64,000 nt of DNA from Ilex aquifolium (Eukaryota > Streptophyta > Magnoliopsida > Aquifoliales > Aquifoliaceae), in assembly GCA_951799425.1 (NCBI GenBank), contig OX637397.1, positions 6,253,001 to 6,317,000 of the forward strand, read 5' to 3'. Below are positions 26,567-60,320 of the stretch, piece after piece. Positions within the stretch are counted from its first letter, which is position 1. Each line of letters begins with the position of its first letter. Position numbers and translations under genes: made by a program. Under the pieces are notes generated by a model. The model made no database searches. It had not been told where the DNA came from and worked only from the letters and a program-made list of their open reading frames with translations.

Positions 26567-28818
26567 TCAGGTTATGTAAAGAATGCAATCATTCTCAATG
26601 CCGTAACTAGCCAAACTTCGACTATCCTCAAGTTGTTTTCCAAAATACATAAGCTTCTCGGCTTTAACTGGCATGTCCTTTTGATCAAGAATCATGTTCT
26701 TAACATCTCCGACAGTGTTATCTAGGCACAAAACAAGTCTTATGTTATTAACCAATCCCCATCTACATCTCCGAACCAATATATGAATTGTGGGAGGCGA
26801 CAATTTTAAGATAGATTCTTCTTTGATGTCATAACAAGCTAAAGATTCTGAATCCTGAAGTATCTTTCCTGTATATATTAGAACCTGATCACTGACCGAG
26901 AACCCAACCATGCTTCCAACTATAGCTTTGACATCACGAACAGTGTACCAGACCTTAGTTTCAAGTTTCATGATCTTTCCAGCTGATGACATTTCTACGG
27001 AAAATGACAGCACATCTCTTGGATTGAAAACTAAATGAAGGGTTGAATTCCCCTGTATTCCAAGAGAGGCCAGTGTCATGCTATCTTCAAGTAGCTTACC
27101 AGCATAGGTAAGGGTGTACTGACCCACTTGGATCCCCTCTTTGGCCTGAATAAGGAGTTTTAAGTTCTGAATGGTATCATGAGGCTTTGCTTCAACCTCA
27201 ATGGTTTTCTCATTTGATAGAATATTGACCAATAGCCTCAATGCAACTGAAGTTTGGACAACAAGATGGAGAGTGGAGCTATTCTGAATGTCATAATCAA
27301 CTAGCTTTTGGTCATCCTTGAGTAGTTCACCAGCAAAAAATAGCTCCTGAAGATTTTCCGATATGCTTTCCTGGTTACATAACAATGCTTTGACATTCCT
27401 AATTGTCTCAGATCTCTTAGCTTTAAAGGCCACAGTTTTGATGATTTTCATGTATATATTTATCTGCAACAAAACATTAACAGAAACAAAATAATATTGA
27501 AGCACATTAACCCGGGATCAATAAGAAAACTCTGATTTTCTATATACAAATCGGAAAAATTAACAAACAAACAAACCTGAGAAACAATACTTAGGTGCAG
27601 TTTATGCATTTGCAATGGAAAAATATCTTAGAATTAATCTGATTCACACAAACAAGGATTATATTTGGATAAAAGTACTGTTATGGGCAATGAGGACTAT
27701 CAACTTCCAATAAGGAACTTCTAACTTCCATGTAGCAAAAAAAAAAACTCATTCCTACCAAAATCTTTAGGCGAATTTTCTAACTCGCAACCATATATTA
27801 TCATAATATATATAATAGTTTTATGATCATGTACAACGCAGACTACACTGTATACAGCATAAATTAACAAAACCAGCCTTCCAGAGGCAATCCCCCAACC
27901 ACACAACAATGGTTCCAACCTAATTTCTGATATTACACAGTTCAGGAATGATTCTGTAAATGCCTGCCATTTTTTGTTTGGGGGCTTTTAGTGTTGAAGA
28001 ACATTGCATTGATCATCCAAGTAATTCCTCTCAGGAACAAAAATTACAGCTTAGCTTGACACAGTTCTTGTGCTAGACTTGATAGTTGTGTTAGTTTCTT
28101 TCATTTATTTGGAACAACTATTATGTTTATGTATAAGATCACAATCTCCAAAAATTCTCTGGTTCTTCAACTATAAAACAGAATGACAGCAGTTTAGAAA
28201 AACATTCCATACAGTTTTTACACCATTCTATTCCAGGATTTTCAATGGAAAGCAATTCCACAAAAACTCGTTATCATGTTTGCCTGATATTTCCAACAAA
28301 TGATCACAATTGTTTCATAAGGATTAATACCATATTCGCATACTAACATAAGGGTTCTGGTTGAGCAGAGTTTTTTTGTTTTGGTCACATCAGTCTAACC
28401 CATCAAAGAAGCCCAAGATCTACAACTATTCAATCTAAGAAACAACTAAAAACCCATATGATGACCCAAAAGCTTCCACCCAAATCTACTATTTCTTTTG
28501 GTTAGAGAAAATTAAATGCAATGACAGGAAAGAAAAAATCAAGACTTTTAAATCTTCAGAAGAAAAAAAGTGTTTGCCCTTGTTTGATCTCTCTTTGCAA
28601 TGTCTTGTTTTCTCAGCAGCCATGCACGAACACTATACTAAATGAATGAATAAACAAAGTCTAAACCAACAAAAAAACAGAGGTCATATAAAAGTAATAT
28701 TAGCAGAGACCTCTTCTTCTTCTTCTTCTTCTTCTTCAGTAGGGTTGCTGTTGCTGTTGCTGTCGCTGTCGCTGTCGCTGCCGTTTGATGACATTGGTCG
28801 ACCTCCAGGAGATTCCAT
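26567..28818 (-). CDS. Tandem ubiquitin-like repeat protein, locus 1 (four units)
   Basis: Two exons: 28711-28818 and 26567-27463, giving 334 residues. Exon 1 encodes a Ser-Asp/Ser-Asn repeat followed by a Glu run, all written by trinucleotide repeats. Exon 2 encodes four consecutive ubiquitin-like folds (about 37-109, 110-187, 188-262, 263-334), each with the (L/I)xxAG(K/E)xLxD-type loop and the LASYGI-like turn of ubiquitin. None ends in Gly-Gly and no Ile44-type surface can be assumed, so these units should be neither cut apart nor conjugated. A scaffold or ubiquitin-mimic role is an inference only. The start was chosen because the same exon 1 with the same phase-0 donor exists in locus 2. 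Compared with locus 2, the fifth unit has been lost. Confidence 0.72.

Positions 28819-31670: not shown

Positions 31671-31704
<34 letters not shown>
31671..31704 (+). repeat. Poly-G tract, 34 bases
   Basis: An uninterrupted run of 34 G, followed by a purine-rich GGTGG-type stretch. Such runs are very rare in plant DNA and can fold into G-quadruplexes. The true length may be uncertain because of sequencing slippage. It lies about 150 bases from the start of UBL-locus-2 homology. Confidence 0.9.
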
Positions 31705-32164: not shown

Positions 32165-35100
32165 TCAACGCTCTTGTAAAGCAACAACCAATACTGTGCT
32201 CTTCCGAATATCATAATCCACCAAACAAAAGTGATCTTGGAGTGCCTTCCCACAGAGGAATACTTCTTTTACCGGGCTTTTCAGTACAGTTGCAATCAAA
32301 ACCTTTAGATTACAAATGGTTGTGGAATCTGGTATACTTGGAAAAAACTCTGTAATTTCAGAGAATTTCATATGGCGCAGTAAAGCAGATGGACAGTACA
32401 GTTGGTGGAGAGTGGAGTGCTTCTGGATGCCGTAACTAGCCAAATCTCGACCATTGTCTAGTAATTTTCCAGCATACACAAGACTCAGGACATTCACGGG
32501 CAAGCCTACTTTATGAAAAATCTTGTTCTTCACATCTTGGACAGTGTCCTGTTGGTACACATCAAGCGTCATGGTTACCCCATTCCATCTCTTAACAAAT
32601 ATCTGAATTGTGGAAGGCACCATTTTTAAGATAGCTTCTTCTTTGATATCATAACAAGCTAAGGTTTTTGAATCCTCAAGTACGTTTCCTGCATATACTA
32701 GACTCTGATCACTGACCGAGAAGCCAACCATGCTTCCAACTATTGCTTTGACATCATGAACAGTGTACAAGACCTTAACTTCAAGTTTCAGGATCTTTCC
32801 AGCTGGCATTTCTACATAAAACGATAACACATCTCTTGGATTGAAAAACAAATGAAGGGTTGAATTCCCTGGAATTTTGAGAGAGGCCAATGTCATGCTA
32901 TCTTCAAGTTGCTTACCATCATAAATAAGGCTGTACTGATCCAAGTGGATCCTCTCTTTAGCCTGAATCAGCAATTTTAAGTTCTGAATGGTATCACGAG
33001 TCTTTGCTTCGACCTCAATGGTTTTCTGCTTTGACGGTATGCTGACAAATAGCGGCAATGCAACTGACTTTTGGATAAAAAGATGGATAATGGAGTTGTC
33101 CTGAATGCCATAATTAGCTAGCTTTTGGTCATCCTTCAGCCATTCACCTGTGAAAAATAGCTCCTGAAGATTTTCTGATATGCTTTCCTTGTCACATACC
33201 AATCCTTTAACATTTCTAACTGTCTCGGATCTCTTCACTTTTAAGGCCACAGTTTTGATGATTTTCAAGAATATAGTTATCTGCGACAAAACATCATAAG
33301 AATTAAAAGAATTATTATTTGAAGGTAATCTATTTGGGACCAATACGACAACCCTGATTTGCTCCATACAACTCTGACAAATTAACAGATAACCCTGAGA
33401 GGCAATAATTGGCTGCAGTTTATATACATGTAGTGGTACAATATCTTAAAATTAATTTAGTCCACAAAGACTGGTTATACTTAGATATGCTGACAAAATT
33501 CCTACGAACAGTTACAGGCAACGTGGACTGTCAACATCCAACAAGGAACTTCCCGACTTCCAAATTGCAAATCACATTCATTTCTACCAAACTCTATATG
33601 CTAAAGTTTCAGTTAATTTTCAATACATGTAATTTTATAAAAGCTATCATAGCATAACGGCCATGTATTTAAACTATCCAAACCAGTCTTCAAGTTGAAC
33701 CCAAAACACTCGACAATAATTCCATTCTAATTCTGTAATCACATTGTTCAAAAGTGATCCTGCAACTTCCAGCCATTGTGTTTTTTTTTTTTTTTTTGTT
33801 TTTTTTGTTTTTTTTTTTGGGGGGGGGGGGGGTGTGTGTGTGTGTGTGAAGACCTTTGCATTGATTCAAGTAATTCCTGTCAATGTGAAGACCTAGAGAC
33901 TCCTTTCCATTTACGAAAAAACCATGGAAAAATAATTTGGTGTCATTTAGGTAGATTTCCATTCCCAATAAAACAAAATTACAGATTAGCTTGACACAAT
34001 TCTTGTGCTAGACTATGTCAGCTTCTATCATTTCTTAGGAACAAAATATGAGTATAAGATATTAATCTTTGATAATTTTTTGGCACTTCAGCAATTAAAC
34101 AGAACTAGACGCAAGTTGCAAACCATCCATACAATCTTCACACCATCCTATGCTAAGATTTTCAATGGAAGTTTAAAGTTGTGCTATTCTAGATAAATAA
34201 CCACCATTGTTCCATAACTTCTTGTTATGATATTTAACAAATAGAACATACTGATGTTTCTATTTTCCTGAACTTTCCAGTAGCCAAAGGAAAAAAAATG
34301 AGTGCAAACTGTTTCATTAAACATGCAAACAGTTTCATTTCACTATAAAATATCCGTCTATACCTTCCAATAAGAACTATAAAAATCCAAACCAAGTCTC
34401 CCATCAAAGAAGCCCAGAATCTATTATTCTGCCATCTAAGAAGCAAGTAAAAACACATATGATGCAACCATAACCACAGTTGTCAATTGCGATTCGTATC
34501 GTGAATCGAAATCCTAAATTCGAGAATCGTGTATCGTAAGATTCAATACAAAATTTGAACAAAAATAAAAAATCATATCTACATATTTAAAATAGGCAAG
34601 ATATTGAATATTGAACATTATTACATTCTAAAAATAATCAATTGACATAATAACGTCGTCTAAATGGAAAGATGCTACCTTTTTGCTTCATTTTCATCTT
34701 TTGTTTAACTATTTTCAAAGTCAACAACTTGAAAAAAAAAATTCATTAAAGAACCATGGCTATTCAAGAACCAAAACAATGACACCAAATACAAATTAGG
34801 TTATAAAAATAAATGGAAAAAGAACAAATAAGAAAATTAATTGAGAAAGAACATACAGGCCAACATTTTGAAACAAAAAATTCGAACCTAACAAACTATC
34901 CATGAAAGAATTGAGAGCAAAAATCTAAGTTTATTTTGAAAAATGGTGACGAGATAGAAAAATCCAATATAAAAAAAAGAAGCAAAAAGGCATGCTAGGG
35001 TTTGCTGACTACTAAGAAAAAGAAGAAGAAGAAGAGGAGGAGGAGGAGGAGACATACCTTCAGCCGATGATGCAAGAGCTTTAGCCGTTACCTTTAGCTT

Positions 35101-40708: not shown

Positions 40709-40748
<40 letters not shown>
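40709..40748 (+). repeat. Poly-G tract, 40 bases
   Basis: An uninterrupted run of 40 G. Like the tract at 31671, it lies about 110-150 bases from the left edge of UBL-family homology (here 40858), though the bases between are not alike. Confidence 0.9.
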
Positions 40749-42795: not shown

Positions 42796-44310
42796 ATGGC
42801 TGTAAATGATAATAATGTTTCTGCTACTACAAATCATGTTATGCCTGTGGTGCATATTTCTATTTCTACTCATTTGTCTCATGGGGAGAAATCCAAAAAG
42901 TTCAATGGAAATGATTTCAAGAGGTGGTAACAGAAAATGTTGTTCTATTTCACTACGTTGAATCTTGCAAAGTTTCTTCGTGAGGATGCTCCTGTTTGTA
43001 GTGAGAATGAGACCGACCGCCAAGTTGTTGCTGCGGTAGATGCATGGAAGTATTCTGATTTTCTGTGCAAAAATTATATCCTCAATGGATTGGATAACAC
43101 ATTATAACACATTATATAATGTGTATAGTTTAATCAAGACGGCTAGAGAGCTGTGGGAATCTTTGGATAGAAAATATAAGACGGAGGATGCCGGAATGAA
43201 GAAATTCGTTGTGGACAAATTCTTTGACTACAAAATGGTGGATTCCAAGACTATCATGAGTCAAGTTCAAGATCTTCAAGTGATCCTACATGAGATTCAT
43301 GCCGAATGGATGGTGCTTAGTGAATCTTTCCAAGTGGTTGTAATTATTGAGAAATTACCGTCAAATTGGAAGGACTTCAAAAATTATTTGAAGCACAAAC
43401 GCAAAGAAATGAAACTTGAAGACTTGATCGTGAGATTGAGAATTGAGGAGGACAATAGAGTCTTCGAAAAGAAGGTTGGTAATCATTCGATGGAGTCAAA
43501 AACACATGTGATTGAAGAGGGACATAAAACCAACAAAAAAAAAAGTATGTTGGCCAACAAGGGGCCAAGGGTGGTGATTCCAAAAGGTTGCTTTGTGTAT
43601 AATAAACTGGGGTATCGTGCAAAGGATTGTCGAAGCCGTAAAGCACAAGTGAACCACAAGAGGAAGGCTGCCCAAGCCAATATAACCGAGGTAGAAAAAC
43701 TATCTGAAAATGTTTTTAACATGAGTTTTTTTGCTGTAGTATCTGAAGTCAACTTGGTGGGAAATACCAAGGAATAGTGGATGGACACCGGGGCCACTAG
43801 ACACATAGGTTCGAATAAAAAGATATTCTCTTCATATGAAGCAATTAATGATGGAGAACAACTCTTCATGAAAAATTCATCCACTTCCAAAGTTGAAGGC
43901 AAAGGAAAGATTATATTGAAGATGACTTTTGGGAAAGAACTTACTCTTAATGATGTGTTATATGTTCCAGAAATTCGAAAAAATCTTGTGTCTGGATCGT
44001 TGTTGAGTAAGAAGGGTTTTAAGTTGGTTTTTGAGTCCGACAAATTTGTACTCACCAAGAGTGTGATTTATGTACACAAGGGATATATGAGCGATGAGCT
44101 CTTTAAGATGAATGTAATGACAATTGTATCAAATTTTAATAATAAGAACACATCTTCTGCTTATATGCTTGAGTCTTCCAATGTATGGCATGGTAGATTA
44201 GGACATGCTAATTTTGATACTATGCGTAAATTAATGAATTTAGAATTGATGTAAATCATAAATGTGAGACATGTGTTGAATCAAGATTAACAAGAACATT
44301 ATTTCATCAC
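42796..44310 (+). pseudogene. Ty1/Copia gag-protease remnant
   Basis: Gag begins at 42796. A stop (TAA for Gln) interrupts it near 42930, and a small duplication shifts the frame near 43095. The long open part is 43100-43777. The zinc knuckle is damaged: C-FVY-N...Y...DC, with Cys and His each replaced by Tyr. A TAG precedes the protease, which keeps its DTGATRHI active-site box at about 43783. The GAG-pre-integrase part (WHGRLGH) follows; its frame breaks at 44254 and homology ends near 44310. No integrase, reverse transcriptase or RNase H was found. The element cannot be active by itself. Confidence 0.88.
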
Positions 44311-44415: not shown

Positions 44416-44998
44416 GGGCAGTGGAGTATGTAGCGCCTCCACCGCCACCATCGCAAGCAGCTCCACCTGCACATGTTAGCTCTGTTATTAAGGTTATAAG
44501 AAAGACAGCGTGATGATTCTTTTGTTTATCATTTCATATGTAGACTGAAAAAATATGAAAATTCATGTATTATCATAATTATGATTTTCAAAATTTTATA
44601 GAGCTAAATAAAAATGACATGAAACTTGGGTGAAAGTTTCAATTTTTGAGACATCACCCTGGAGGTCATGGTCCACTTGGACATAACCTTGTCATGCCCC
44701 TGCAACTGGGACTGATGATACTGTAACTTTCGTCATAGCAAGTGCTAGCATCTTAATACCCGAATTTGCAACAAGAAAAAACTAAATGTATGCCCAAAAG
44801 AGAATTTAGGTCAAGTTATAGAAGAATAGTTCAAACTGCTTCATTAGTCATATACACTAGTAATACCAGATATATGAAACATTTTCTCACAATACAATGT
44901 CGATGGAAAATGTTTGGCCAGAAAAGGAAAAAAACTAGAAAGAAAACAAAAATCAATGAAACATAATGACTGCAGAAAGTGTTAGATTATTAATTTAC
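44416..44998 (+). repeat. Orphan, 5'-cut copy of the proline-exon repeat unit
   Basis: From GGGCAGTGGAG onward this matches the 790-bp units of 47.9-51.1 kb: the second part of the proline exon (VEYVAPPPP type), then the intron sequence to 'agtgttagattattaattt'. The first part of the exon and its acceptor site are missing; the break joins the Copia remnant side. It lies upstream of the start codon of the gene it resembles and so cannot be part of that transcript. Confidence 0.8.
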
Positions 44999-45241
44999 AA
45001 TTTCTGTGCAATGCTGGAGACATATAGAGATAGTGTGCCATTTTTGGAACTCCTTTTTTTTATCAAACAATGCTTCTGAGTGTGGGTTTGAAGATTGACA
45101 TTGCAGTTGAAAGATCACACAGAAGTAAACCCCAAACAATTCTATCTTCTTGTTCTATATATGTGTTTCTATCCACCCAAACCTTAAACTATACCAGCCT
45201 TTCTATTTTCCTTCCCCCTCTCTCTTTGACACATATCTGCT

Positions 45242-48200
45242 ATGGCTTCCTTTTCTCTCTCTCTCTCTCTCTTTCTTGTCTTCCTCGCATTCACTGTGCC
45301 TGCTGATTCAGAAGCTGTAAGTCTCTTGGTTTCCTTTCCTTGTTTCTAATGGCTACTAAGATTTATAAGGAATGTGTTCTTGATGTTGGCTTGTCCGAAC
45401 CCTTCTGTTGTTGGTGTGGCTTCTGATGTGTATGTAGGTAGAGGTTAACTTATTCACCCACTACCTGTGAAATAGATTAAGTTATTCACCACTACTCAAC
45501 AAATAGATTAACCATTCATCAAAGACACCACCAAATTGTCACTCCCCTGTTTCACTAACACAGAGAATTAGACCCATTGATCTTGGTTTTAACAATTTAT
45601 GTTTCTATTTTCAATTTCGGTGGGTAAATTGTGTTATTTTGATTTTATGGTAGTCGTGGTTCGTGATGGCTGCTTAACAGAAGTAGAATTAGAACTTTGG
45701 ACGTATCTTGAATTTCAAAAGTAATAAAAATTATTCTTTCTGTTGTTAAGGCTAAAGGTTCGAAATCAAATCGTCATCAAGATTATTACAGACATTATTT
45801 TTGAGTAAATTAAAATACAAAATCATTCTCTATGCACCCTTTTGTTGAATTTTATTAGAATTTTTTGTTTTGTTTGTTTGGTAGAGGGGGCTTGACAATT
45901 TGGGTGGGTGTAATTAAATGATTGAAGAGAAATATGATGGATTACAGACACATGTTGGACAGTGATTGGAAGATAATGTGGTGTTCTTTATTCTTTGTGT
46001 TACACTAGGAGTTCTCTGATGTTGTGTTTGCTAATTTTTTTGTAACATTGATTTGCAGCCACCACTTCCCACTAGGAGTGTCAGCCGCAAAGCGTTCTGG
46101 CCACCATTGCCAGGATCTCCATTATTGGCAGCTCCACCTGTATAGGTTAGATTGCTATTGAAATGACAAGAATGACTTATGTTTCTTTTTGCATTTCGTT
46201 TTATATGAAGACTAATAGAATTATGAAAACTCAAAAACCTCAACTTTTTCTAACTATTGTGTTATCCAAAAAAGGGAGAAGAAAAAGCTTTGAGAGAAAA
46301 CTCTATTTATTTAAGCAGTTTATTTTATACCAAAAGGTGGTTAATCAATTAACCAAATTTCTCTTATTTGTTTCCTAAGCAGACATAATTTTGTCCTTGT
46401 TTGTAGCACAATTTTTATGCTAAATGGCATGCCAAGTAAAAAATTTCGAAGGTTAAACAACTGTTTTATGTAATCAATCGTGAATGTTAAAATGGAAATG
46501 GAGGATCCCATACATGTATGTTTAAAGAAAAAAAAAGCTTCCATGGAAAGCTGTTGCAACCTATAGGAGGTGCTCTGCTTACAGATATTTTTCTGGAATC
46601 ATGTACATATCTGAAATATGCTCTAAGACATTTAGCTAGTGCTGCTATATTATATTTCTCCATAGATATTTGCATGCCAATCTTCTTCAGCTTTTCTTGT
46701 GTGGTGTAAAGAAGGTATAGAAAAAAATAAGGCTCTTTTAATTCCATCAGACCACCTATCATTGTTCTTTAGTTATCTTTTATGTTCATCAATCTCCAAC
46801 CACTTTGTTTTTCATATATGTTGCCTGTTTAAGTAGAATATGTGGTCTTAAAGCGGACGTGTGTGCCCGGTGCCACTGAATCTTGTGGTTGCCCTTTTGA
46901 GGGTTTATAGTAACTAGCTAGAAGCCTAGATTGTATCAAATAACTTGAGAAAGAGTTAGAAAATTGCGTCAACTCTTGGTTTTGAATTACACTCTGAAAA
47001 TTTGTTCTTTTATATTTCGGATGCACTGCCTCTCCCTTGGCATTGATAAAGGAAAGCATCAGAAGAATTGAAGCATGTTAGTTTTTACACACTCAGTATA
47101 CCTTGCAGCATATGAAATCTGTTCAGGACAACCGTTGACATGGATCACCATTTGAAGGTTTAATGTGCATTTCTAAATGTTTTGTAGTCAAAGAAAATAG
47201 AATTTTGTATAGCAACTTGAAATACATAATACATGATCAACATTCCACTTTGATATTGAAAAGCTATTCATGTTATATTGTGTGTTGTTAATTTACAAGT
47301 TTTGAATTCGTGAAACTTATGTATTATGTATTATCATAATACATAACTATCAAAAGTTTTATAAAGCTAAATAAAAATGACATAAAATTCTGCGTGAGAT
47401 TCCAAATTTAATAGGAAGGAGTTGTTCTCATTGCACTTGGAAGTTCATTTCATGAAGTTTATCTAATTTTTCCACCTTTGTTAAGTATTCGGTTGGTAAT
47501 AGGATGAGAATTCGATTTTGGGAGAATACTTGGGGGTGCTATGTCTTTTGCTTATAAGGTTGTCTAGACCCCAAAATTCATATATTTCAAGTATGATATA
47601 ATTCAATGGATTTTCTTGTCGTACTTCTTATGCTGTGCTCATAGGTTTTTTTAGCCCTTCTTTTTGTTTTTGTTGTATCTTTCTTGTATTTACTTTGCTC
47701 ACAAGGATTCCCAGTTCTCTTATGTACTTTATCATGATTTTTTTATGATTAATAGAATTTTCGTGTTTCCTATCAAAAAAAAGTAGTAGTTGTACTCTCA
47801 GAATTCTACTTCTACCAAACGAATATTAACAAATTTTATTTTGCTGATTTTTCTGTTTCCTCCTTAACAATGAGAACAAAGTGGTGTGTTATGTTGTGTT
47901 TGCCAAGTAATTTGTGATACTGTTTGTAGGTCCCTTTTCACCGTCCAGCTCCATGGGCAATGGAGTATGTAGCGCCTCCACCGCCACCATCACTGGCAGC
48001 TCCACTTGCACATGTTAGCTCTGTTATTGAGTTTATAAGAAAGACAGTGTGATGATTCTTTTGCTTATCATTTCATATGTAGACTAAAAAAATATGAAAA
48101 TTTATGTATTATCATAATTATGATTTTCAAAATTTTATAGAGCTAAATAAAAATGACATGAAACTTGGGTGAAAGTTTCAATTTTTGAGACATCACTCTG

Positions 48201-51200
48201 GGGGTCATGGTACACTTGGACATAACCTTGTTATGCCCGTGCAATTGGGACTGATGGTGCTGTAACTTTCGTCATAACAGGTGCTAGTATCTTAATAGCC
48301 GAATTTGCTACAAGAAAAAAACCAAATGCATGCCCAAAAGAGAATTGTGGTCAAGTTATAGAAAAGAATAGTTCAAACTGCTTCATTAGTCATATACACT
48401 AGTAATACCAGATATATGAAACATTTTCTCACAATATAATGTCGATGGAAACTGTTTGGCCAGAAAAGGAAAAACTAGAAAGAAAACAAAAGTTTGCAAA
48501 AGTTTGCGAAAGTGTTAGATTATTAATTTCATGTATATATAGCTGAATTGATCAATTTGCGGAGGAAAATTGCTTGGTGATTTTGCAAAAATTTGTTTGG
48601 AACTGACCATTGATATAGTAAGTAAATTTTTTTGAAGCGTAAATGTCTTCTTTGTGTAAATAAGTGTGACATGAGTGTTAAATGGAGGGGGATTATCGCT
48701 TACATGAACTTAGATATTGTTTGCACGGTCCTTTTCACCACCCAGCTCCATGGGCAGTGGAGTATGTAGCGCCTCCATCGCCACCATCGTTGATAGCTCC
48801 ACTTGCACTGGTTAGCTCTGTTATTGAGTTTATAAGAGAGACAGTGTGATGATTCTTTTGCTTATCATTTCATATGTAGACTGAAAAAATATAAAAATTC
48901 ATGTATTATCATAATTATGATTTTTAAAATTTTATAGAGCTAAATAAAAATGACATGAAACTTGTGTGAAAGTTTCAATTTTTGAGACATCACCCTGGGG
49001 GTCATGGTACACTTGGACATAACCTTGTTATGCCCCTGCAATTGGGACTGATGGTGCTGTAACTTTCGTCATAGCAGTTGCTAGCATTTTAATAGCCGAA
49101 TTTGCTACAAGAAAAAACTAAATGTATGCCCAAAAGAGAATTGTGGTCAAGTTATAGAAGAATAGTTCAAACTGCTTCATTAGTCATGTACACTAGTATT
49201 ACCAGATATATGAAACATTTTCTCACAATACAATGTCGATGGAAAATGTTTGGCCAGAAAAGGAAAAACTTGAAAGAAAACAAAAGTTTGCAAAAGTTTG
49301 CGAAAGTGTTAGATAATTAATTTATATATATATAGCTGAATTGATCAATTTTGCGGAGGAAAATTGCTTGGTGATTTTGCAAAAATTTGTTTAGAACTGA
49401 CCACTGATATAGTAAGTAAATTTTTTTGAAGTGTAAATGTCTTATTTGTGTAAATAAGTGTGACATGAGTGTTAAATGGAGGGGGATTATCGCTTACATG
49501 AACCTAGATATTGTTTGCAAGACCCTTTTTACCACCCAGCTCCATGGGGAGTGGAGTATATAGCGCCTCCACCGCCACCATCGTTGACAGCTCCACTTGC
49601 ACAGGTTAGCTCTGTTATTGAGTTTATAAGAAAGACAGTGTGATGATTCTTTTGCTTATCATTTCATATGTAGACTGAAAAAATATGAAAATTCATGTAT
49701 TTTCATAATTATGATTTTCAAAATTTTATAGAGCTAAATAAAAATGACATGAAACTTGGGTGAAAGTTTCAATTTTTGAGACATCACCATAGGGGTCATG
49801 GTACACTTGGACATAACCTTGTTATGCCCGTGCAATTGGGACTGATGGTGCTGTAACTTTCGTCATAGCAGGTGCTAGCATCTTAATAGTCGAAATTGCT
49901 ACAAAAAAAAACTAAATGTATGCCCAAAAGAGAATTGCGGTCAAATTATAAAAGAATAGTTCAAATTGCTTCATTATTCATATACACTAGTAATACCAGA
50001 TATATGAAACATTTTCACACAATACAATGTCGATGAAAAATGTTTGGCCAGAAAAGGAAAAAACTAGAAAGAAAACAAAAGTTTGCGAAAGTGTTAAATT
50101 ATTAATTTCATGTATATATAGCTGAATTGATCAATTTTGCGGAGGAAAATTGCTTGGTGATTTTGCAAAATTTGTTTGGAACTGACCACTAATATAGTAA
50201 GTAAATTTTTTTGAAGGGTAAAAGTCTTCTTTGTGTAAATAAGTGACATGAGTGTTAAATGGAGGGGGATTATTGCTTACATGAACCTAGATATTGTTTG
50301 CAGGGCCCTTTTCACCGCCCAGCTCCATGGGCAGTGGAGTATGTAGCGCCTCCACCGCCACAATCGCTGGCAGCTCCACTTGCACAGGTTAGCTCTGTTA
50401 TTGAGTTTATAAGAAAGACAATGTGATGATTCTTTTGCTTATCATTTCATATGTAGACTGAAAAAATATAAAAATTCATGTATTATCATAATTATGATTT
50501 TCAAAATTTTATAGAGCTAAATAAAAATGACATGAAACTTGTGTGAAAGTTTCAATTTTTGAGACATCACCCTGGGGGTCATGGTACACTTGGACATAAC
50601 CTTGTTATACCCGTGCAATTGGGACTGATGGTGCTGTAACTTTCGTCATAGCAGGTGCTAGTATCTTAATAGCCGAATTTGCAACAAGAAAAAACTAAAT
50701 GTATGCCCAAAAGAGAATTACGGTCAAGTTATAGAAGAATAGTTTAAACTGTTTCATTAGTCATATACACTAGTATTACCAGATATATGAAACATTTTCT
50801 CACAATACAATGTCAATGGAAAATGTTTGGCCAGAAAAGGAAAAAACTAGAAAGAAAACAAAAGTTTGCAAATGTTTGCGAAAGTGTTAGATTATTAATT
50901 TCATGTATATATAGCTGAATTGATCAATTTTGCGAAGGTAAATTGCTTGGTGATTTTGCAAAAGTTTGTTTAGAACTGACCACTGATATAGTAAGTAAAT
51001 TTTTTTGAAGGGTAAAAGTCTTCTTTATATAAGTAAGTGTGACATGAGTGTTAAATGGCGGGGGATTATCGCTTACATGAACCTAGAAACAAAATGCTTC
51101 TGAATATTGTAACCAATAATAAGGGGTGCTCCGTGTAAGATTACTTTCTGCAAATTTGTGAAATTATGTATAAATCTAAGCTATGCTCGAAGACAACAAA

Positions 51201-51484
51201 TTTGGCATGATACTTTCCCTTTCTAGCGAAGTCTTCTTAAGATGCAAGTGGTCAACGCTCTTTCAAAGTGGAGTTTCCTTCTCTAATATTTTAACGGTTA
51301 TTTTTAGGGCTTATATGTGATATACAGGGGTGGCAGCAATACCAACAGCGGTATTGCCATCTCACAGCTGGCATGGACGATTTTAGGAGTATGTGCTGCA
51401 CTGGCAGTCCCAGGCATAGTTTACTATATGTACTCAGGTCAGCCCAGTGAGGTGAGTGGTCAGCCTGTGCAGGAGCGACAGTAG
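45242..51484 (+). CDS. Unrecognised secreted/membrane proline-repeat protein gene with tandem exons
   Basis: I do not recognise the family. Exons, all phase 0: E1 45242-45316 (ATG, Leu-rich signal peptide ending near PADSEA); E2 46059-46145 (proline-rich, ends in TAG); four copied 84-bp exons at 47930-48013, 48727-48810, 49521-49604 and 50304-50387 (each like PFHRPAPWAVEYVAPPPP plus APLAQ); last exon 51308-51484 (58 residues: Gly/Asn stretch, one hydrophobic segment of about 25 residues, Gln-rich tail). E1 has a TATATAT box about 90 bases upstream. The E2 stop means that full translation requires skipping E2, which phase 0 allows. The acceptor is intact for copies 1 and 4 and changed for copies 2 (CAC) and 3 (CAA). 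Topology would be type I: extracellular proline repeats, one membrane anchor. It could be a live gene, a relic, or a gene making only the short E1-E2 product. Confidence 0.5.
47921..51090 (+). repeat. Four tandem ~790-bp units, each with one 84-bp exon
   Basis: Exon starts are spaced 797, 794 and 783 bases apart. Each unit holds the acceptor, the 84-bp exon, the donor GTTAGCTCTG and about 700 bases of nearly identical intron, ending with CGCTTACATGAAC. Units 2-4 also share 'agtttgcgaaagtgtta', and all introns carry 'tttggccagaaaagg'. The copies are much closer to each other than to E2 or its intron, so the amplification is later than the E2 duplication. Confidence 0.9.
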
Positions 51485-57830: not shown

Positions 57831-58798
57831 TAGTCAACTTTGAGCCTAAATTAAAATGGGATCCGTTCGTTGTTTCGAATAAATTTTCGTGGGTCCATAT
57901 TCTACTCCGTGAGGAGAATAATGTAGTATATTTATTTGCTCAAATCGAGTAAGAAATGAATGAGAAAATAAGCTCCAAAGTGACCCTCTTGAAATGTGAA
58001 AATAAATGTTGTGCAATGTGGGATTTAACATCAATCCCACATTGGTTGAAGAAGAAGTCATACATGGGCATATATAGACCAAGTTTGCTCTATGGGATTG
58101 GGTCTCAAGAGGTACCACAGTTTTATGAGCGGAGCAAGCACCTACATGCCTTCGATTCTACCACACACGCCACGACCCGAAATTGAGTTGTGTTTGTTCA
58201 TAGAGAACAGTTACACAAGTGGTGTCTTCTGGCTTGCATTGAGTTGTGTCTGTTCATACTGGGTTGTGTCCTTTAGTATGGTGGCTCTCCAGAAAGTCAC
58301 CAAAGTGTTTATAAATACTCAGGCTCATTACCATTCTGCATTCAATTCATTCATCAGTCTATATTAAGAGTTAAGCCAGACATTAGTGCATAGCATTTCG
58401 GCATTAAAGCAGTCTGCATTTGGAGAGTACACAACACAATTTTTAGTTCGCTGGACGAATAGATTGGAGTGCTACTTCTGCTCGTGTAAAGATCATTGTA
58501 TCCTAGGAAGCAGACGTTTGATATTCCATAAGCACCGTGTGTGGGGGCGAAATCTATCTTAAGGACATAGTATCAAACACTAGCCTTGATTTACCTAAAG
58601 TTCAATAACAATTCATATTCTGCAATCGGGTCAGTATTTATATTGGTTATTCAAACAGTTACGTGTAACTCTTTCGTGTAAGACTATTTCTGTATAACTG
58701 TTTCGCATTTGATTGTTACTGTTTTGTTATACATTACATGTTACAAATCAGAAATTTCAATAAGTGATTTTACTATATTTGAAATACCACAAACAACA
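57831..58798 (+). repeat. 3' LTR, first ~45 bases missing
   Basis: This matches the 5' LTR from AGTC-ACTTTGAGCCTAAATT to the terminal AACAACA. The TGTTAGACC start present in the 5' LTR is not found; unrelated AT-rich DNA stands in its place. It also lacks the ~140-base stretch that the 5' LTR has between CACGACCCGA and CGAAATTGAG. Confidence 0.82.
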
Positions 58799-59625
58799 TA
58801 ATCAGCCAAAGAAAAATAATCTCGGAGTGCCTTCCTGCCAAGGAATACTGTTTTTACCGGCGTTTTCAGTACATTTGCAATCATATGCTTTAGATTAAGG
58901 ATGGTAGTGGAATATGGTGAACTTGGACCAGAATCTGTAATTTCAGATAATTTCATTTGGTGTAGTCTGGTAGTAGATGAATAGAAAATTTGGTGTAGAG
59001 TCGAGTGCTTCTGGATGCCGTAACTAGCCAAATCTCGACCATCCTGTAGTAATTTTCCAGCATAGACAAGACTCTGGACCTTAACGGGCATGCCTACTTT
59101 ATGAAAAATCTTGTTCTTCACATCTTGGACAGTGTCCTGTTGGTCCACCTCAAGCGTTGTGGTTTCCCCATTCCATTTCTTAACAAATATCTAAATTGTG
59201 GAACGCAGCATTTTTGAGATAGCTTCTTCTTTGATATCATAACAAGCTAAGGTTTTTGAATCCTCAAGTAGGTTTCCTGCATATACTAGACTCTGATCAC
59301 TGACCGAGAAGCCAACCATGCTTCCAACTATTGCTTTGACATCATGAACAGTGTACAATACCTTAACTTCAAGTTTCATTTTCTTTCCAACTGGCATTGC
59401 TGCATAAAACGATAACAAATCTCTTGGATTGAAAAACAAATGAAGGGTCGAATTCCCTGGAATTTTGAGAGAGGCCAAAGTCATGCTATCTTCAAGTTGT
59501 TTACCTGCATAAATAAGGCTGTACTGATCCAAGTGGATCCTTTCTTTAGCCTGAATCAGGAATTTTAAGTTCTGAATGGTATCACGAGTCTTTGCTTCGA
59601 CCTTGATGGTTTTCTGCTTTGACGG
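58799..59625 (-). pseudogene. UBL locus 3 (right piece), truncated pseudogene
   Basis: On the minus strand this aligns with locus 2 from mid UBL2 to near the end of UBL5. Reading from 59625, the frame is open to 59191, where a CAG codon has become TAG at the start of UBL4. The same frame then continues open through UBL4 and UBL5 to the LTR junction at 58803. The 5' part (exon 1, UBL1, start of UBL2) has been cut off at 59626 by a second LTR element and would lie beyond the window. Confidence 0.85.
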
Positions 59626-60320
59626 TGATGGTGTAAACCTGCGTGAATGAACTATGGGATTGGATTATGTGGTATGAACGATCTGTGTGGGGTTTGATGT
59701 GGCATCTGAGCTACAAGGCTCATGTATCGATGGACGAATGCTCTAATTAACCGATGTGTAGTGCGTGTGAGACAGCAGAAGTATAGTGGTTCACCGGCTA
59801 ACGAGCTCGGCTAGTCCACTCTCTAATAGAGGCTCTTGCTCCTTTCTCTTTATTGATGAATCGAACGTGTTACAGTAGAATACTCGGGGTTCCCCTCAAT
59901 GGAGGTTGTCCCTCCCTTTTTGTATATTCATGCTTACCTCTAATTCGGAATTATATCCTACATTGAAGGGATTGCTCCCTATCTTCATCTATAATCTCGA
60001 AGTTACCTAGACTTCCTATAGCTGGCTCCCAATGGCTTGGTTTTTGTCTTTTATCATGGGATCCTCTCCTTGATTGTAGGAGAGGATACTTGCTGGTAAT
60101 GTGTTACGCGCCTTGGATTAGCTGAATTCCCATTATGAATATATCTGCTGTCGACTTGCTGTCCTCTTAACATTTATTGTCTTATGTCTTCAGCTGGGAG
60201 TACAAGTGTTGACTGGTCGAGCTCAGATCGTGGCTGGGTGAGCTCGGTTTATTTTCCCCGTCCCCCAGAGCTGAGCTCTTTTCCTGAGCTCGTGTCTGGG
60301 GTTTATTTTAAGTATCATCA
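59626..60320 (+). repeat. LTR of the second element
   Basis: 695 bp, starting TGATG and ending CATCA, inverted termini as expected for an LTR. It is followed by GTTGCCCCCCAGCCC. The end was set by the CATCA and the change in base composition; the partner LTR is not available to confirm it. Confidence 0.65.

Follow-up and report, generated by a model that had tools for sequence, protein, structure and literature searches.

The locus at 45242-51484 of the window is most probably a degenerating duplicate from an unnamed family of secreted or membrane proteins, one in which the middle exon has recently been duplicated in tandem. The window is a 64,000-nucleotide stretch of an 800-Mb assembly (G000:C7:6253001-6317000), and the family itself looks genuine and unnamed in the libraries searched. 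Its members would be small proteins encoded by three phase-0 exons, comprising a signal peptide, a proline-rich part, and a hydrophobic segment with a short tail; the hydrophobic segment is probably transmembrane. We propose that an extra proline exon (exon 2, probably derived from an earlier duplication of the middle exon) was gained, and that the copy on contig C7 then amplified its middle exon and the accompanying intron into tandem units of about 790 bp, with a truncated unit upstream. Full coding ability would have been lost since, through a nonsense codon closing exon 2, the loss of two acceptors, and a premature stop in the tail. Thus, the window copy is probably not a working gene, and the modular protein proposed in an initial annotation of this DNA is probably not made.

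The family can be seen at several stages within one genome, as open members, as an amplified middle exon, and as a 142-kb array, and provides a compact case for how duplication of exons, growth of arrays and decay succeed one another. Functional work would be worthwhile on the open members on contig C6 rather than on the window copy.

Exon plan and lesions of the window copy

The signal-peptide exon, the diverged proline exon, the four exons of 84 nt and the last exon with its single hydrophobic segment, all described in the initial annotation, were found in the sequence, on the forward strand. Exon 1 (45242..45316; 75 nt, 25 codons) encodes the signal peptide (MASFSLSLSLFLVFLAFTVPADSEA) and ends at the donor GCT/GTAAGT, the slash marking the exon boundary here and below. 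Its signal-peptide coding part includes a TC microsatellite at approximately 45253-45272; a related copy, B, is 14 nt longer at this tract and its frame is broken there. Exon 2 (46059..46145; 87 nt) is the diverged proline exon, with a CAG acceptor and an in-frame TAG at its end (46143-46145). The four 84-nt exons follow: the proline-rich exons 3 (47930..48013; acceptor TAG, donor CAT/GTTAGC) and 6 (50304..50387; acceptor CAG, donor CAG/GTTAGC), and between them the open copies exon 4 (48727..48810) and exon 5 (49521..49604), in which the acceptor position reads CAC and CAA, respectively. All four share a common open frame, with PAPW and EYV/EYI-APP cores in each, and with their introns they form units of 783-797 bp. 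The last exon (51308..51484) encodes 58 residues with a single hydrophobic 19-mer at residues 16-34 (best 19-residue mean 2.03), followed by a polar tail and a TAG. As claimed earlier, every drawn exon is in phase 0 and has a length divisible by three. We consider this layout to be more than chance because two diverged paralogues, described below, have the same three-part, phase-0 plan.

Upstream of the ATG, by 79-88 bp, a TATA-like box (TCTATATATG; 45154..45163) was read by eye. The same or a similar box is found in copies B, C, D, E and G, and a weaker one in the relatives P35-P37. Further upstream lies a truncated fifth unit of proline exon and intron (about 44416-44992, forward strand), which the initial annotation had missed. 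It starts within about 170 bp of a broken copia gag-pol remnant (43040-44251) with Retrotran_gag_2, Pol_BBD and gag_pre-integrs domains.

Continuous coding through every drawn exon fails in this copy, owing to lesions that the initial annotation also overlooked. The final codon of exon 2 is TAG (46143-46145), compared to CAG in copies C and E and CAT in copy B, and a transcript containing the whole of exon 2 stops after 53 codons. In alignment, the acceptor AG of exons 3 and 6, and of copies B, C, F and G, is replaced by AC in exon 4 and by AA in exon 5; for exon 5, the nearest AG lies one base downstream and would shift the frame. Without their acceptor AG, exons 4 and 5 do not count as ordinary exons, and we rejected the reading in which all four tandem exons are usable. 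The TAG of the last exon falls in a tail that is open in the consensus of the C6 array and also in locus L034, past that locus's own earlier TAG. With nonsense in exon 2, two dead acceptors and the lack of coding constraint reported below, the suggestion that these exons are freely spliced in and out of a working gene finds no support.

Relatives elsewhere in the genome

Searches with exon rather than intron queries, with very common words skipped, gave match counts that are lower bounds. The tandem exon had at least 10 matches in the genome (5 on C7 and 5 on C6), and exon 1 at least 11, namely the window, 8 on C6, 1 on C15 and 1 on C5, the last being a 33-base CT tract that we discounted. For the last exon, at least 150 matches were scored out of 173 candidates: the window, C6:38136261, C15:25117150, and 147 inside the C6 array. 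Most of the copies found are clustered on C6, with remnants on C15, and similar exon boundaries and upstream sequence are seen in other copies as well.

In copy C, exons 1, 2 and 3 are open with GT donors, and the alignment to the window stops shortly past exon 3. Copy D has an open exon 1, with exons 2 and 3 absent from the aligned stretch, while copy E has exons 1 and 2 fused in a single open frame, and copy G, on C6, has open exons 1 and 3, with exon 2 absent from the aligned part. Lesions also occur in copy B (a frame-breaking exon 1 length and a middle-exon donor reading AT), copy F (exon 1 with its frame broken, a stop codon within the middle exon, and an AT donor), L034 (an in-frame TAG and an acceptor that has shifted), L033 on C15 (a one-base deletion at the exon start and an in-frame stop), and P37. 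We considered whether an insertion had split a single gene into copy G and L034; because of a 61-bp overlap between the pieces, they may instead be two partial copies. Between L033 (5423-6000) and L034 (7162-7749), 591 columns downstream of the last exon are 92.9% alike, compared to 77.9% over 529 columns of the last-exon region, indicating that the exon region has diverged faster than its flank.

Two relatives on C6 are open throughout, each with three phase-0 exons and GT-AG sites: P35 (L035+L040; C6:38150401-38157900), of 141 codons, and P36 (L036+L038; C6:38182601-38190600), of 146 codons. P35 is open only by way of an internal donor, CAG/GTTGAT, as the longer exon meets a stop. A third relative, P37 on C15, has lesions in exon 1, at the acceptor of the middle exon (CAT) and in the last exon. 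When the last exon of P35 was compared to the genome (E up to 1), five places were recovered: P35, P36, P37, the window and C6:38136267. The match in the window (C7:6304314; 39% identity, E 0.0748) is weak alone and is backed by exon order, splice phase and upstream sequence. The window locus thus belongs with P35 and P36, exon 1 by DNA and the last exon by protein. P35 and P36 may be expressed as anchored proline-rich cell-surface proteins. The gene reading of the initial annotation therefore holds for the architecture of signal peptide, proline-rich part and membrane segment, which is open in both of these relatives, and is not supported for the window copy as a working gene.

The largest group of relatives forms a tandem array of 169 units over 142 kb, from C6:37917896 to a unit at 38059766 (loci L011 and L015-L028), with a unit spacing of most often 848 or 833 bp. 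Every unit has family-related proline and membrane sequence joined without an intron, and in 133 of the 169 the first stop comes at 125 codons or later. Per site, the units diverge from their consensus by about 1.1-1.3%. The three codon positions varied almost equally (1.18, 1.10 and 1.10% at positions 1, 2 and 3, with 168 of the 169 units aligned); we therefore rejected a selected frame, and the open frames of the array most likely stem from recent copying. A nonsynonymous/synonymous ratio of 0.82, together with stop changes at 0.33 of expectation, gives a weak hint in the other direction, toward constraint. Taken as a whole, the array reads as a gene-derived satellite.

Coding constraint and alternative readings

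Pooled over pairs, exons 3-6 differ at 53/504 positions (10.5%) and their introns at 173/3862 (4.5%). About half of the excess in exons is attributable to base composition, and the remainder amounts to 20 changes against 15.3 expected (p = 0.14). Separated by base class, over five units and counting only columns with a majority base, exon and intron rates showed no significant difference at either G/C sites (17/246 vs. 53/974, p = 0.36) or A/T sites (3/141 vs. 28/2090, p = 0.44). Relative to the consensus of exons 3-6, 15 of the 20 exon changes are nonsynonymous and 5 synonymous, which fits the nonsynonymous fraction of 0.795 expected without selection (p = 0.58). This expectation was derived from the substitution spectrum of the noncoding part of the C6 array, in which G-to-A and C-to-T changes are commonest, followed by C-to-G. 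No change to a stop was seen in these exons, compared to about 0.8 expected, numbers too few for firm inference. Given a 15:5 ratio as in neutral sequence, and pairwise dN/dS values from 0.60 to 2.69 across the six pairs, purifying selection on the tandem exons was rejected; exons 3-6 show no sign of it, and no secure sign of positive selection.

Longer comparisons gave mixed values. Against P35, dN/dS was 0.19 for exon 6, 0.23 for the last exon, 0.52 for exon 2 and 1.56 for exon 1, and in all of these but exon 1 the silent sites were close to saturation. For exon 3 of the window it was 1.32 against copy B, 0.86 against copy C and 0.27 against copy G, and for the last exon 0.71 against L034 and 1.75 against the array. 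The low values among these (0.19, 0.23, 0.27) suggest former coding constraint.

It is conceivable, if unlikely, that the window locus still works as a gene. Splicing along exons 1-3-6-last, or from an upstream GT in exon 2, would then give an anchored proline-rich protein of 139 or 166 residues, with the number of middle exons tuning how far the outer part extends. Several open paths do have GT-AG sites. The path 1-3-6-last has 139 codons, the paths 1-3-last and 1-6-last give 111 residues each, and 1-last gives 83; use of the alternative GT after 46139, which lies six bases ahead of the drawn exon 2 donor, avoids the TAG and yields 166 codons. Every GT-AG reading that extends to the last exon omits exons 4 and 5. 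A product lacking exon 2 would also fit the family layout, as in the aligned part of copy G and in the single middle exon of P35 and P36. The kept TATA-like box, the low ratios against P35 (0.19 and 0.23, at silent sites near saturation) and four tandem exons that are all in frame, with their stop changes at zero against about 0.8 expected, a difference too small to carry much weight, point the same way. However, exon 2 has a normal acceptor and a plausible donor and would often be included, stopping translation; the tandem exons are without constraint, and the tail is shortened.

A broader version, which we hold to be rather improbable, takes the family as a lineage-restricted plant group of anchored proline-rich surface proteins in which tandem copying of a phase-0 exon makes the outer part longer and more diverse, with protein change outpacing silent sites in the open members and the window copy live and alternatively spliced. 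Between P35 and P36, 2 of 75 positions differ in exon 1, and divergence is 11.8% for the core exon and 17.7% across the opening 141 nt of the last exon; of eight noncoding blocks, seven differ by 7.0-14.6% and one shows 0/47. When exon 1, 30 core-exon codons and the first 47 codons of the last exon are counted, there are 4 synonymous changes in 73.1 sites and 33 nonsynonymous in 232.9, a ratio of 2.6 (Fisher p = 0.062), while dN/dS over the whole last exon is 0.66. These figures do not establish positive selection, and are at most suggestive of protein change running ahead of silent change in P35 and P36.

Exons 1 and 2 also join in frame to give a 53-codon ORF ending at the TAG, which could encode a short secreted peptide without a membrane anchor. 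We regard this as highly improbable. Stops ahead of later exons usually trigger nonsense-mediated decay, so a transcript with this stop upstream of the later exons would normally be degraded; moreover, copies C and E have CAG at this position, and the TAG is most simply a lesion. Least credible of all is a transposable element carrying captured gene pieces, for which the broken copia next to the truncated unit and the spread of copies over three contigs could be cited, as the matches (at least 10 for the tandem exon and at least 11 for exon 1) are clustered rather than dispersed, and open three-exon relatives exist.

Relation to named families

Consistent with the initial annotation, which knew of no plant family with this layout, no named family was recovered. 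A Pfam profile search gave nothing above cut-off, nor did NCBIfam, a prokaryotic library, for the window product and P35, and a search of the PDB with the window product only gave no match at E up to 1. Sub-threshold hits to T4SS_pilin (E 0.039, 14.5 bits against a cut-off of 26.6) and YkuD_2 (E 0.12, 12.2 bits against 27) were taken as chance. Among the publications surveyed, judged by titles and abstract openings, none dealt with such a family.

Tandem exon duplication is a general class of gene expansion, and the window locus shares with it a phase-0 exon and flanking intron repeated head to tail in four full copies. It differs in that two of the four copies are without an acceptor and coding constraint is not apparent, and so it resembles duplication followed by decay.

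By composition, the window product comes closest to several classes of proline-rich wall and surface proteins, which we compared using two readings: a mature seven-exon reading with the exon 2 stop omitted, and a skipping reading of exons 1-3-6-last. Classical arabinogalactan proteins (AGPs) carry a C-terminal GPI-anchor signal with a hydrophobic tail at the end, whereas the hydrophobic segment of the window product has a polar tail behind it, which speaks against such a signal. Like AGPs and AG peptides, which belong to the hydroxyproline-rich glycoprotein superfamily, the window product combines a signal peptide with a proline/alanine-rich part, and exons 2-6 have 55.0% P+A+S+T and 19 AP/PA/SP/TP pairs. 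Under published criteria, however, classical AGPs have at least 50% P, A, S and T, and AG peptides 50-90 residues with at least 35% PAST (PMC5073881); the seven-exon reading, at 47.3% PAST, and the skipping reading, at 42.0%, lie below the AGP level, and with 203 and 119 mature residues, respectively, both are longer than an AG peptide. Extensins resemble the window product in runs of four to five prolines with tyrosine close by, and differ by the same criteria, which require at least two SPPP (PMC5073881), as the window product has no SPPP and no SPPPP. Proline-rich proteins (PRPs) are matched by 22.7% proline in the mature reading; they are defined by at least 45% PVKCYT or by repeated PPVX[KT]/KKPCPP motifs (PMC5073881), and by composition the window product falls short at 37.9% PVKCYT. 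By layout, the window product would resemble a chimeric proline-rich surface protein.

Elsewhere in the window, frames with ubiquitin-like domains lie on the reverse strand at 26570-27517, 32168-33445 and 58744-59190, and two of the three have four matched stretches each. They are apparently a local family, and a frame at 59191-59664 looks related to them. Unbroken runs of G were also seen, 34 bases long at 31671-31704 and 40 at 40709-40748.
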